Of a DNA stretch of 64,000 nucleotides, positions 12,299 through 26,364 are shown piece by piece. Positions within the stretch are counted from its first letter, which is position 1. Each line of letters opens with the position of its first letter. A program made the position numbers and the translations under genes. The notes under the pieces are model-generated. The model ran no database searches. It saw only the letters and a program-made list of their open reading frames with translations, and had not been told where the DNA came from. The stretch comes from Fimbriimonas sp. (lineage in GTDB: Bacteria; Armatimonadota; Fimbriimonadia; Fimbriimonadales; Fimbriimonadaceae), in contig JARXAE010000004.1 of assembly GCA_029866005.1 (NCBI GenBank), positions 1 through 64,000 of the forward strand, written 5' to 3'.

Positions 12299-15200
12299 TC
12301 AACCCACCAGGAAATCAGCAGTCACAATTGGCAACGGAGAATGTCCCCAGCCCATATCGCTCGAACCGGTCGCTGCTGCATCCGGAACCCCCAACAGAGA
12401 AGTAATCAACGGCTTATAAGGAAAAACTCGGCTCGCCAAAAACGCCACGTGGTCGTCCCGAACCTGCGCTTCGCCGATGATTGTTACATACGGCGAGCAG
12501 ACAATCGCGTGCCCATCACGCTGATAAGTTTCATCAAAGCAGGTGACGTTGAGTAGCCCGGTTTCATCTTCCAGATCGAAGAAGACGACCCGTTTGCCGC
12601 TCGGAGTTGGCGGAAATCGCAAGCGGATTGGGTTGCCGACGACAATCGCTTTTCGACCATGCTCCAGCCTTCTTGCCACTGTAGTCGTCACTCCGCCCCG
12701 GCTCGCAACTCGCTCCCGCTCAAAGCTCATGAGGTGCTGGTCAATATCCAAATCTAGATACCTCCGCTCGTGGATTGCCCGCTCCGCCTGATTGAAATCC
12801 ACGATATCCTCGGGGAGTAGTGGAATAGGTGCCCCGAGTGGCAATGTTCCTGGAGTGTTGTAAGCTCGTGCGTAATCCAGAATCGCCGGTAAAGCCCACA
12901 ACAACTGTCGCCGATTCGGATGGAGTTCATCAAAAGCTCCGACAAGGATGAGCCTCTCAAGATCATCACGAGAAGGGTTCGTCTTCATCGCGAAGTCAAA
13001 AATGCTCTCGAAAGGTCGAGTCAAAGAGATCCGAAGTTGTAAATCCCGGTTTAACCCGCTAATCTGCGCCAACGCAACCCGAATCCCTCCGTTCGGAACA
13101 ACGATCTTGGGGTCCATTGTCGACTTCACATTCTCAACCGCAAACCCCACCTCACTTAGGTTCACAGCCACTGGAAGCACCGCCACTCCCCGGTTTCGTG
13201 CCTCATTGACCAACGTACAGGGCCCGTAGTAACCCGCTGGCTGAGCATCCAATAGCGAAGCAAAATACTCGGCCGGATAGTGCTGCTGGCAGTAGATTGA
13301 CCTCACCGAGATCTCGGCAAACGCCAGTGCATGACCTTGCGCGAAACCATAACCCTTGAACCCGGCAATGAGTTCAAAGACTTCCTCAGCTATCTGAAGT
13401 CCGTACCCATTTGCCTGAATCCGCTGGATGACCCTTTCCCGTATCTCCCGCCCAAAATCCTCTCTTCTTCGCTTATGAATCTGCTCACGAGTGTCCTCCG
13501 CTTCACCTCCTGAATACCCAGCGAACTTCTGGAGGAGCTGGTCAACCTGCTCCTGAAAAACGATGATTCCGTATGTAATCCCAAGAATCTCCTCAAGATC
13601 GGGATGTGAAAAGGTGAATGGCTTTCCATGTCGCCGTGCGATCATCTCGTTCAGCTTCACCGCTCCGCCTACGCCTGGCCTAATGCCAGCTTGAACCAGC
13701 GAAGCATCCTCAAGGTTCTTTGTCTTGAGACGAATATGCGCTTGACGCATTGCAGGCGATGCTGATTGAGGGATGCCGATCAATTCACCGCTTCGCATCG
13801 TTGCATATACATCCGGATCATCCGAAGGCAGATTCGCAACATCAAACGTTCGATCTCGCACCACAACCCGATCCTGAGTCCCCTCCAAAACATCTTGCCC
13901 GCGTAGGCACAAGATGTCGAACTTATCGAAGTAGTGCTTCGCCGAGCGCTTATCCCACTGAATGATCCTAAGGTTGCCTCCGTTTGGATCCTCGGTTGCC
14001 GACCACATGACCGGGACAGTTTCATGCAAAGGACGAGAAGATATGACCACCCCTGAAGAGTGCGCCCGCATGTTCCTCGGAATATCCATCATCCGCTCCG
14101 CCAAACTCAAAACCCACCTGAATCGCTCCTTTGGAATGTTGCTGCCTTTCAGTTCAGGACGCTTTTCGAGAGCCGCTTCCAGCTTGTCGGGTGCAATTCC
14201 TCCATGGACCCGCTTGCTCAAAAAGCTAATCGTTGAATCCGGTAGGCCAAACACTTTGCCAACCTCGCGAATGATCCCTCGCGTGCAATAAGCCCCAATT
14301 GCCGCCACCGTTGCCACCCGTTCCTCGCCATACTTCTGCACCATATAGGACCTCACCTCGTTCCGTCGCTTCGCCGGAAAGTCGATGTCTATATCTGGGC
14401 GCTTAGTTCCATCAGCCGGTAAAAAACGATCGAAGTGTAAACGATGCTTGTAAGCATCAATTCTGCTCAGATCAAGACAATAAGCCACAACCGAATCAAC
14501 AACAGATCCCCGACCACTAAACTGATATCCCCGCCGAGAAGCCCAGCGACAAGCGTCCCAAATCGTCAAAAAATGATCAGCATATTGTAAGCGACAAATT
14601 CTCTCTACCTCCATATCAATCCGTCGACGAATTCCCGTCGTCATCAGTGGATACTTCTGATGCGCACCTGCATAGGTCACCTCTCTCAAAGCGTTCTCCG
14701 GATCATCGAACAGCTTTGGCAAAGTAGTGCGAGGTGGCATCACATCCCGATCACACTTCGACAGCAGCTGAAGGCTGTTCGATACCAACTCTGGCATCTC
14801 CGAATACAGTTCATGCATCTCGAAAGGCGTCCGAAGAAACCTTTCCGCATTAATTGATCGGAAAGGGAAGCCATCCTCGTGAAAGCGAGGTTTACGCCCC
14901 TTTACTTCGTGAATGAGACTCAAATTGTGCGCACATCCGATCACTTCCTGTACGGGGAAGTGGTGGGGACGAGCATGCGTTACCAGCCCACCTGCCACCA
15001 TCGACACCTCCATTTCCTTGGAAAGCTCGCAAAGCCCCCTCAAGTGCGCAATATCCCAAGGTTGGTATGCAAAATCTGCCTCGAGATACAGTCGATCTCG
15101 TCCAAAATGCTCTCGAAGTAGACCTAGAAAGTTACGAGCAGAATCTATCTGTCCTCTTAGTAGCATTGGCAAAAGAGGACCATGTGATCCGCCTGTCAAA

Positions 15201-15862
15201 CAGATCAGATCTTCGCACAGTGACCATAAATGTTGAAGGCGAAGAATAGGTAGTAGCCGCTCTTCTTCTAAATGGCATCTTGTAATCAAAGTGGATAGCC
15301 CTACATATCCCCGCTTCGACTGAGCTATCAATACAATCTCACCACCCGTCTCAAGCTCAAATGATGCCCCGATCAAAGGATGAATCCCCGCATCCCTGCA
15401 CCCTCTGGCCAGCTCAACCGCACCCACTAACGAAAAACGATCTGCGATACAAAGCCCAGGAAGACCGTTCATAACTGCAAACTGAACCGCTTCTTCTGGC
15501 AACATCACTCCCCGCCCAAAGTCGTAGCCACTTGCAATATGTAGTGGTACATAGGGCGCATCCGAAACTCCCGCAGGGAGAGCAGAATATAACCGAGGCG
15601 GCTCAGAAGCAAATGGGTGCTTCATCTTCCCGTCGCGCAACTTTCGAGTTCGCAACGACCAATCCTCCGAATGATCAACCTCTTCCGTTGAACCAGTCAC
15701 AAACGGCAAGTGACGAAACCCTAGCTCAAACGACTCCTCTCTCCTCGAACCCGCTGACACATATCGAATCCATTCTTGCGCCGACTCGCCATCCCACCAT
15801 TCACCTGACTCTCGCCATCGCGCCGATAGGTTAGTACCATCCGGTAGTCGCCCGAAGCACAC
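12299..15862 (-). CDS. dnaE2: error-prone DNA polymerase III alpha DnaE2 (ImuC)
   Basis: 1187 residues from GTG 15862. DnaE2 is the polymerase of the SOS mutasome and extends past lesions with ImuB. Residues 1-60 carry an extra segment (ARWRESGEWWDGESAQEWIRY) resembling the small DUF6504 proteins found beside imuB in other phyla. A PHP domain starts at about 100 but has lost its metal ligands: HxH reads LHIAS, the TDH motif reads ADRF and GxE reads GAS. The polymerase core has GRGS, catalytic RPDIDIDF (about 488-495) and the third acidic residue in KFDILCL (about 645). Helix-hairpin-helix and OB-fold regions follow to the end. It overlaps imuB by 32 nt and is clearly cotranscribed. The GTG start is chosen because the overlap and the N-terminal domain support it; ATG 79 codons in is an alternative. 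Confidence 0.88.
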   Translation of the reverse strand: MCFGRLPDGTNLSARWRESGEWWDGESAQEWIRYVSAGSRREESFELGFRHLPFVTGSTEEVDHSEDWSLRTRKLRDGKMKHPFASEPPRLYSALPAGVSDAPYVPLHIASGYDFGRGVMLPEEAVQFAVMNGLPGLCIADRFSLVGAVELARGCRDAGIHPLIGASFELETGGEIVLIAQSKRGYVGLSTLITRCHLEEERLLPILRLQHLWSLCEDLICLTGGSHGPLLPMLLRGQIDSARNFLGLLREHFGRDRLYLEADFAYQPWDIAHLRGLCELSKEMEVSMVAGGLVTHARPHHFPVQEVIGCAHNLSLIHEVKGRKPRFHEDGFPFRSINAERFLRTPFEMHELYSEMPELVSNSLQLLSKCDRDVMPPRTTLPKLFDDPENALREVTYAGAHQKYPLMTTGIRRRIDMEVERICRLQYADHFLTIWDACRWASRRGYQFSGRGSVVDSVVAYCLDLSRIDAYKHRLHFDRFLPADGTKRPDIDIDFPAKRRNEVRSYMVQKYGEERVATVAAIGAYCTRGIIREVGKVFGLPDSTISFLSKRVHGGIAPDKLEAALEKRPELKGSNIPKERFRWVLSLAERMMDIPRNMRAHSSGVVISSRPLHETVPVMWSATEDPNGGNLRIIQWDKRSAKHYFDKFDILCLRGQDVLEGTQDRVVVRDRTFDVANLPSDDPDVYATMRSGELIGIPQSASPAMRQAHIRLKTKNLEDASLVQAGIRPGVGGAVKLNEMIARRHGKPFTFSHPDLEEILGITYGIIVFQEQVDQLLQKFAGYSGGEAEDTREQIHKRRREDFGREIRERVIQRIQANGYGLQIAEEVFELIAGFKGYGFAQGHALAFAEISVRSIYCQQHYPAEYFASLLDAQPAGYYGPCTLVNEARNRGVAVLPVAVNLSEVGFAVENVKSTMDPKIVVPNGGIRVALAQISGLNRDLQLRISLTRPFESIFDFAMKTNPSRDDLERLILVGAFDELHPNRRQLLWALPAILDYARAYNTPGTLPLGAPIPLLPEDIVDFNQAERAIHERRYLDLDIDQHLMSFERERVASRGGVTTTVARRLEHGRKAIVVGNPIRLRFPPTPSGKRVVFFDLEDETGLLNVTCFDETYQRDGHAIVCSPYVTIIGEAQVRDDHVAFLASRVFPYKPLITSLLGVPDAAATGSSDMGWGHSPLPIVTADFLVG

Positions 15863-16961
15863 GCAGCACCTCCTTGCGACGAGGAACCTTCACTGAGGAT
15901 CCTGCCACCACCACCGACGACCCGTACTTCCGCGACAACCGATCCACTGCCTCAGAAGGCAAGGATTCCTCACGATCAACTAAACCAGATAAAGAAACCT
16001 GCCGCCGAGAAGCCGCCCCCACCTCGTGAGCCACTGCCCGCAACCGGACAACCCCCTCGGCAACCGCCATGTCTGCCCAAAGTTGCAAAAGTGCCATCCG
16101 AAAACGCAAGGCTGAGTTCAAAGCCCGCCCAAACTGTCGCCGCAAACTCCGCTCACCAGCCTCGCCTTCCACAAAAAGCTCCAAGCCCTTCGCCTCTTGG
16201 TCCCCCTCGCTTAACGCACAAGCTAGCTCACGAGCCAACCGTTCCAAGCCCAAAGCGACCGCAGATGAGTCCGAACACAACCCATCAAATGTCAACCGAC
16301 GCGAGATGGAACAAGGCGGATAGTTTCCAACCACAGGCTCATGAAGCATCCCCATCGCCGCTTGACGAATCGTTAGGCCGTACAGCCCAAACTGCGACTT
16401 TAAAGTCGCCAAAGAGAGTCCCTGAATTTCCTTAATCTTCCGGTAACCCAGAAACGCCAGCCGCTCCCGTACCGACATCTCGACCGGTGCCAACTTATCT
16501 AATCCGCACTCTGCCAAAGCCGCGAAAGGTTGAGGGAAATGCAACAACCCTGAAGCAGGAGCTAAAGCTTGAGCCACCCAACGGCACGCCGAAACCGCTC
16601 CCCGATACTCAAATGGCAACGAGGAACAAACCTCCAACGCTGTCAAAAAGGGGTCCGGATGACCTGTTAAATCCACGTAGGCCTGATGAGGTGAAACCAT
16701 CTCAACTGAATCCGAAACCGCACACAGTCGGTTTAACCAACATGCCGAGGCCTCTTCATACAGAGATGAATCAAACGAAAAACCAGTCAGCTCATGCAGA
16801 ATCGCCCGGGCCTGACCAGCACTCATCCCAACCCGTATCCCCGCCGCTAAAGAGACCTGACAGGCATCCAAAACCACCTTTTCTCGCACCACAACCGCCG
16901 GCGAAACAGGCTCATGGCACGTTAGATACAATCCAGAGACTTCGATAAAAAGAGTAGACAT
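15831..16961 (-). CDS. imuB: ImuB-like Y-family polymerase homologue
   Basis: 376 residues. ImuB is a catalytically dead Y-family protein that bridges DnaE2 and the sliding clamp. The N-terminal motif reads LFIEVSGLYLTCHE rather than the IDxDxFF of active polymerases, and the palm SxDE motif is replaced by HQAYVDLTG, so the acidic triad is absent. A helix-hairpin-helix (ERLAFLGYRKIKEIQGL, about 165-182) and a little-finger-like C-terminal part follow. Its 3' end overlaps dnaE2 by 32 nt. No ImuA/SulA-like gene lies upstream; the next gene diverges. A palindrome covers the start codon, suggesting a damage-responsive operator. Confidence 0.82.
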   Translation of the reverse strand: MSTLFIEVSGLYLTCHEPVSPAVVVREKVVLDACQVSLAAGIRVGMSAGQARAILHELTGFSFDSSLYEEASACWLNRLCAVSDSVEMVSPHQAYVDLTGHPDPFLTALEVCSSLPFEYRGAVSACRWVAQALAPASGLLHFPQPFAALAECGLDKLAPVEMSVRERLAFLGYRKIKEIQGLSLATLKSQFGLYGLTIRQAAMGMLHEPVVGNYPPCSISRRLTFDGLCSDSSAVALGLERLARELACALSEGDQEAKGLELFVEGEAGERSLRRQFGRALNSALRFRMALLQLWADMAVAEGVVRLRAVAHEVGAASRRQVSLSGLVDREESLPSEAVDRLSRKYGSSVVVAGSSVKVPRRKEVLRVLRATTGWY

Positions 16962-16998
16962 ACATCTACATTATTGCAACGATATGTTTCAAAATCAA
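16954..16998 (-). promoter_or_regulatory. imuB promoter with palindromic operator candidate
   Basis: On the minus strand, TTGATT (16998-16993), 17 nt, AATAAT (16975-16970) form a sigma70-like promoter; read as TANNNT it is TAATGT (16973-16968) exactly 6 nt from the ATG at 16961. The palindrome GTAGA-N6-TCTAC (16954-16969) covers the predicted start site and the start codon, an ideal place for a repressor such as LexA. The binding protein is not in the window, so the LexA assignment is inference. Confidence 0.5.
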
Positions 16999-17042
16999 TA
17001 TCTTCATTGACTTTTATCGAAGAGTAGTTGAAACTAGACCCA

Positions 17043-26174: not shown

Positions 26175-26312
26175 CATGACTCAAGAATTTGATCTGAAAA
26201 ATGATTTAAGTATATATACGTCTACATAAAAATCAAACATAAGAGTAGACAAATACCCCAATAAAGACTTAACTCATTATCTGCAAAAAACTTTTGAAAA
26301 AAAGAGTTTAAA

Positions 26313-26346
26313 AGTGGTTGTAAAGTGGGAGAGTAGTGTCTATACT
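26313..26346 (+). promoter_or_regulatory. mraZ (dcw) promoter with MraZ-type operator repeats
   Basis: TTGTAA (26318-26323), 17 nt, TATACT (26341-26346) form a sigma70-like promoter. AGTG repeats start at 26313, 26324 and 26335, each 11 bp apart: AGTGGTTGTAA, AGTGGGAGAGT, AGTGTCTATAC. In E. coli and others MraZ represses its own operon by binding direct TGGGN repeats spaced about 10 bp. The repeats here overlap -35 and the spacer, matching autorepression. The binding assignment is inference from the known mechanism. Confidence 0.65.
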
Positions 26347-26364
26347 ATTCACACCAAAGCCAAG

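Follow-up and report, generated by a model that had tools for sequence, protein, structure and literature searches.

A candidate LexA box of a new type over the imuB-dnaE2 promoter of a Fimbriimonadaceae genome, and its predicted regulon

The LexA box of Gram-positive bacteria and actinobacteria is GAAC-N4-GTTC, and controls lexA, recA, uvrB and polymerases; the box of E. coli is CTGT-N8-ACAG, and that of the Xanthomonadales is TTAGTAG-N5-CTACTAA. LexA is unusual among bacterial regulators in that its DNA motif has changed many times, the postulated route being that the gene is duplicated and the old copy then lost (PMC8565304). That article gives 17 LexA motif types as reported by 2021. LexA-controlled imuA-imuB-dnaE2 cassettes have also been described (PMC3901139, PMC6511836), and the class of catalytically dead ImuB proteins has been reviewed (PMC6511836).

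The element analyzed here, with core TAGAC-N4-GTCTA, lies over the imuB promoter of a genome of the Fimbriimonadaceae (Armatimonadota; 2.81 Mb, 97% complete) and resembles each of these boxes in part. With the Gram-positive/actinobacterial box it shares the inverted repeat, the 4-base spacing and the AC-N4-GT core, but the half-site is GTAGAC/TAGAC and not CGAAC, and the recognition helix of the genome's LexA is SLRGVTVHL and not SSSTVHxHL; other Armatimonadota LexAs, of the SSS type, do resemble the Gram-positive case, having RAAC-N4-GTTY in their own promoters. Like the E. coli box, it is a 16-bp inverted repeat over SOS promoters, although the half-site bases differ and the inner AC/GT part belongs to the motif here. 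The AGTAG/CTACT flanks are common to it and to the Xanthomonadales box, the spacing between them being 8 bases here (filled by AC-N4-GT) and not 5. Among the open-access papers that were searched, none links LexA to Fimbriimonas or, where the SOS response is concerned, to GTAGAC, and none reports a LexA-binding motif or SOS regulon of Armatimonadetes/Armatimonadota. The label that best fits is a candidate new LexA box with its regulon, of a type for which we found no description.

The window, that is, the whole 64-kb stretch of DNA that was analyzed, contains a minus-strand operon (16961-12299) encoding a Y-family protein and then DnaE2. Its relevant features are the following:

12299..15862, minus strand: dnaE2 (imuC), error-prone DNA polymerase III alpha, second gene of the operon (PRK05672/DnaE2 match)
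15831..16961, minus strand: imuB-like gene, 376-aa Y-family (IMS, PF00817) protein; its SxDE catalytic motif reads SPHQ
16954..16969, minus strand: predicted LexA operator, GTAGATGTATGTCTAC on the coding strand, spanning the imuB start codon; ranked first by a matrix made without imuB
16959..16961, minus strand: imuB ATG start codon, inside the operator; homology to relatives runs from residue 1
16970..16975, minus strand: -10 element AATAAT of the imuB promoter, read from sequence and abutting the operator
16993..16998, minus strand: -35 element TTGATT of the imuB promoter, with a 17-base spacer to the -10, inferred from the sigma-70 consensus

As its SxDE motif reads SPHQ, the ImuB-like protein is probably catalytically inactive, and an inactive Y-family ImuB followed by DnaE2 is the arrangement of the ImuA-ImuB-DnaE2 mutasome. 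The operon is thus like the described LexA-controlled cassettes in combining an inactive-looking Y-family protein and DnaE2 under a putative LexA box, but it has no adjacent imuA and its ImuB-like protein is short (376 aa), which brings it near the variants without ImuA that PMC6511836 describes. No imuA was found at the locus, where the upstream neighbour of imuB is a divergent NHL-repeat gene; the sequence-only reading had been correct in this respect.

It had also been correct in placing a palindrome, GTAGA-N6-TCTAC, across the predicted transcription start and the start codon of imuB. The sequence GTAGACATACATCTAC (GTAGA-CATACA-TCTAC) occupies window positions 16954-16969 with the ATG (16961-16959) inside it, and the interval 16954-16998, when read on the minus strand, consists of exactly this palindrome and a TTGATT-N17-AATAAT promoter. 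At the position of the imuB -10, two relatives (G018 and G001) have GATAAT. Because the predicted transcription start falls inside the palindrome, the imuB transcript is predicted to be nearly leaderless. The site thus lies over the promoter and covers its predicted start, a placement that is similar at the Y-polymerases, recA, recQ and uvrB. An imperfect inverted repeat, CTTCGATAAAAAG / CTTTTATCGAAG (window 16940-16952 and 17011-17022), flanks the imuB promoter, and one of its arms encodes LFIE of ImuB.

GTAGA-N6-TCTAC has this sole exact match in the 64-kb window and none in 100 dinucleotide shuffles. Throughout the 2.81-Mb genome it occurs three times and the same pattern read backwards five times, so the count of the 16-mer by itself is not unusual and was dropped as evidence. 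The unusual feature of the exact matches is their position: each of the other two marks the start of a Y-family polymerase gene, a full copy and a truncated one arranged in tandem. The Y-polymerase gene is duplicated along with its neighbours (L001/L002, G000 C20:309147-314996), and the second copy, truncated at 149 aa, has kept the predicted operator.

The form of the motif given in the sequence-only reading had to be amended: GTAGA-N6-TCTAC is one form of it, and the core is TAGAC-N4-GTCTA. When the genome was searched with TAGAHNNNNDTCTA (TAGAH-N4-DTCTA), only 10 places were found, six of them at promoters or starts of DNA-damage genes, namely recA (TTTACTAGACGCTCGTCTATGTATAAT), uvrB (CTAGACAGGCGTCTATAAT), recQ (TTGACAACTAGTAGATTCTTGTCTATACT), imuB and the two Y-family polymerase copies. 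Of the other four, two fall within genes (ruvC and an epimerase gene) and were dismissed as coding chance; one precedes an ArsR gene, and one is intergenic. By our own rough arithmetic, chance would put five independent places of the nine no further than 100 bases in front of some 20 typical SOS genes of a 2.8-Mb genome with odds of the order of 1e-14. The same motif is hence found at recA and at the error-prone polymerases of one genome, as is expected of a LexA operator. Absence of the motif from other damage genes had been named beforehand as the outcome that would speak against such an operator; that outcome did not occur, since recA, uvrB and recQ all have the motif and lexA has a half-site of it. 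The recQ and uvrB sites are kept in two congeners (G018 and G001). Allowing one mismatch added sites at the starts of genes for a UvrA C-terminal half, a glyoxalase-family protein, a DinB_2-superfamily protein and a sigma-70 region-4-like protein.

The sites were compared among relatives. The imuB starts read TATAATAGTAGACATATATGCACTAT, the recA promoters contain TAGAC-N4-GTCTA or GTAGACNNNNNTCTAC, and the Y-polymerase starts have the form TATAAT-N6-ATG-GTAGACNNNNNTCTACC, coding for MVDxxLP. A symmetric matrix built from 81 sites of 85 regions (consensus TAGTAGACATATGTCTACTA, 17 bits) reached at least 10 bits in 27/30 imuB, 24/27 Y-polymerase and 26/28 recA orthologue regions, as against 1/425 shifted control windows; three imuB, three Y-polymerase and two recA relatives stayed under 10 bits. 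When each gene was left out in turn, 26/30 imuB regions still scored at least 10 bits, and 23/28 recA and 25/27 Y-polymerase regions at least 8 bits. With a matrix made from recA and Y-polymerase sites only, the imuB site ranked first of the 64,000 window positions (18.2 bits), the maxima in 20 block shuffles of the window being 9.0-15.0 bits. In the Y-polymerase genes (L199-L225), predicted to be leaderless, the putative operator forms codons 2-6 (GTAGACNNNNNTCTACC = VDxxLP), 6-8 bases behind the -10; the operator sequence would here dictate the N-terminus of the protein.

The genome has one LexA match (TIGR00498, 190 bits versus a cut-off of 111; PF01726 and PF00717), the best named relatives of which come from Armatimonadetes/Fimbriimonadaceae metagenome-assembled genomes, the closest being 96% identical. 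It has the winged helix-turn-helix, S24 peptidase, Ala-Gly site and Ser/Lys dyad of a canonical LexA, and both the cleavage site (A91-G92) and the dyad (S127, K164) are invariant in 10 relatives. Upstream of Armatimonadota lexA genes of this SLRG type, GTAGAC or GTCTAC occurs within about 170 bases in 97/101 cases; for lexA genes of the SSS/SSC type it occurs in 2/37, and RAAC-N4-GTTY in 22/37. That the box would belong to a lineage-specific LexA, as had been suggested, is borne out by this joint change of box and recognition helix. In a LexA tree with the helix masked, the SLRG and SSS types are parted by one branch (SH-aLRT 99). The co-variation therefore reflects essentially a single evolutionary change: the association is strong, but as independent trials it amounts to one only.

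Both LexA types occur together in genomes of several families outside the Fimbriimonadaceae lineage. In such genomes the promoter of the SLRG paralogue contains the whole palindrome in its -35/-10 spacer, e.g., TTGACAGTAGACCTATGTCTACTATATAATG, and similar sites were found upstream of 8/10 second lexA genes examined. These paralogues link the palindrome, on sequence grounds, to LexA of the SLRG type without recourse to the window genome. No ImuB or DnaE2 was found within the 8-17.6 kb stretches around ten of these SLRG-type second lexA genes.

The lexA promoter of the window genome is TTGACAAGTAGACAAACAGGACGTATAATCCGTCTAC. In the relatives the promoter reads TTGACA-GTAGAC-TATAAT, GTAGAC standing between -35 and -10 in 77/79 named relatives; it is mostly a single half-site, the full palindrome not being the rule. 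For autoregulation, which the motif upstream of lexA would suggest, the picture is mixed: the GTAGAC half-site is there, and the full palindrome stands at the SLRG-type second lexA genes. In the window genome the full N4 palindrome is absent (score -0.3 bits) and GTAGAC-N18-GTCTAC surrounds the -10, a spacing that no other target shows; a search of the genome for GTAGAC-N(2-30)-GTCTAC returned only lexA (N18) and one other place. Among 49 non-redundant lexA promoters, 17 have TCTAC 19 bases past GTAGAC, and 10 the full GTCTAC at N18. It seems that lexA uses a strong half-site, sometimes together with a distant second one; this arrangement is the least explained part of the system. Some 50-70 bases ahead of GTAGAC, the lexA upstream regions share another conserved string, ATTATGRCA / GTATGGCATG; read on the other strand it is TGYCATAAT, which looks like the extended -10 of a divergent gene. 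One contig titled Methanoregulaceae archaeon (L097, JADZEW010000021.1) carries a lexA and promoter of Fimbriimonadaceae type, and is probably mislabelled or mis-binned.

Taking into account that the same box stands at the recA, uvrB, recQ and polymerase promoters and changes with the LexA helix, we consider it very probable that the palindrome is a LexA operator repressing imuB-dnaE2, that this box serves recA, uvrB, recQ and the Y-polymerases as well, and that the SLRG-type LexA derives from a duplicate. The case is built on sequence: the site and its promoter geometry, conservation, the genes of the regulon, the joint variation with LexA type and the intact cleavage residues of LexA. Weighing against it are the lack of the full palindrome at the genome's own lexA, the few imuB, Y-polymerase and recA relatives below 10 bits, and the single change behind the co-variation. 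A LexA dimer on TAGAC-N4-GTCTA, behind the -10 and over transcription start and start codon, would block RNA polymerase; upon DNA damage, RecA filaments would stimulate LexA self-cleavage at the conserved Ala-Gly, as in the established LexA pathway, and imuB-dnaE2 would be derepressed. The same box would control recA, uvrB, recQ and the active Y-family polymerases, and lexA through half-sites. LexA control of imuB-dnaE2, which the sequence-only reading had proposed by analogy with other phyla, is supported by conservation of the box at recA, imuB, Y-polymerase and lexA genes in dozens of relatives.

Another repressor, of the ArsR, MarR or TetR type, might instead use the site to control only the translesion polymerases. 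Such a repressor would fit the finding that two of the three exact 16-mers belong to tandem copies of one Y-polymerase gene, and also the presence of a similar palindrome, TTAGACAACTGTCTAA, where an SdpR-type ArsR gene starts. We nevertheless regard it as improbable: the core is also found at recA, recQ, uvrB and lexA and tracks the LexA helix type across the phylum, and the ArsR site of the relatives is TTAGATGNNCATCTAA, with a different half-site. Since the relatives have TTAGATGNNCATCTAA, the palindrome of the ArsR gene was set aside as a LexA box and attributed to probable autoregulation. The SdpR-type repressor genes (L196, L267, L272) have a conserved palindrome, TTAGAYNNNNRTCTAA, at their start, which resembles a LexA box and probably is not one.

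That the sequence at the imuB start arose by chance or by coding constraint, and has no regulatory role, is less probable again. It is kept in 27/30 imuB relatives although the encoded N-terminus varies, and at recA, recQ, uvrB and lexA the element is noncoding and upstream, which contradicts chance, even if the exact 16-mer (three matches) does not exceed the reversed control (five) and part of the site encodes the first ImuB residues. The least probable alternative is an RNA hairpin over the start codon that would control imuB translation. An inverted repeat does span the ATG, and similar arms flank the Y-polymerase starts; at recA, recQ, uvrB and lexA, however, the element coincides with the -10 or precedes it and would not be transcribed; where, as predicted, transcription begins within the palindrome, the RNA would lack the left arm.

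With the LexA operator as the preferred reading, the data suggest that the LexA motif was switched through duplication and loss, and that the intermediate state is still visible; the order of events we infer. The stages would be the ancestral SSS-type LexA by itself, then the coexistence of the two LexAs, the newer of which autoregulates through the new palindrome, and finally the newer one by itself. In the last stage the SLRG-type LexA, having arisen from a lexA duplicate within the Armatimonadota, would have become the sole SOS repressor of this lineage and taken over recA, uvrB, recQ, imuB-dnaE2 and the polymerases, with operators coming to occupy the opening codons of genes that are nearly leaderless. 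The duplication-divergence model (PMC8565304) likewise has a LexA paralogue that diverges, acquires a new motif and later becomes the sole regulator; here, in contrast, a single phylum contains both dual-type and diverged-only genomes, and the paralogue has the new palindrome in its own promoter. On balance we favour, with some reserve, the view that GTAGAC-N4-GTCTAC is an undescribed LexA motif that came from a lexA duplication in the Armatimonadota, that living lineages keep each stage, and that the final-stage operators lie in first codons (ATG GTAGACNNNNNTCTACC, MVDxxLP). Since the states before, during and after the switch all seem to be represented in the Armatimonadota, along with the matching helix change, the duplication-loss model becomes directly testable. 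This is the first SOS regulon prediction known to us for this poorly cultured phylum, and the box would provide a rule for finding its damage genes.

Some further sites were observed. A separate 339-aa gene (L259 499-1515, G000 C33:96316; L241 in G001), whose start codon is touched by a LexA-like box, encodes the UvrA C-terminal half (profile positions 613-943); this lineage may have a split uvrA. A 165-aa protein with weak similarity to sigma-70 region 4 (L254 1425-1919, G000 C18:2856) has a LexA-box score of 20.6 bits, among the best of the genome, and is possibly a damage-induced regulator. Within the window, the second-best LexA-box score (15.5 bits, AAGTATATATACGTCTACAT) falls in the region 26208-26350, which also contains GTAGAC at 26244 and AGTAGTGTCTATACT at 26334 and lies upstream of mraZ (26482) and rsmH (26997), so that SOS control of this division cluster is possible.
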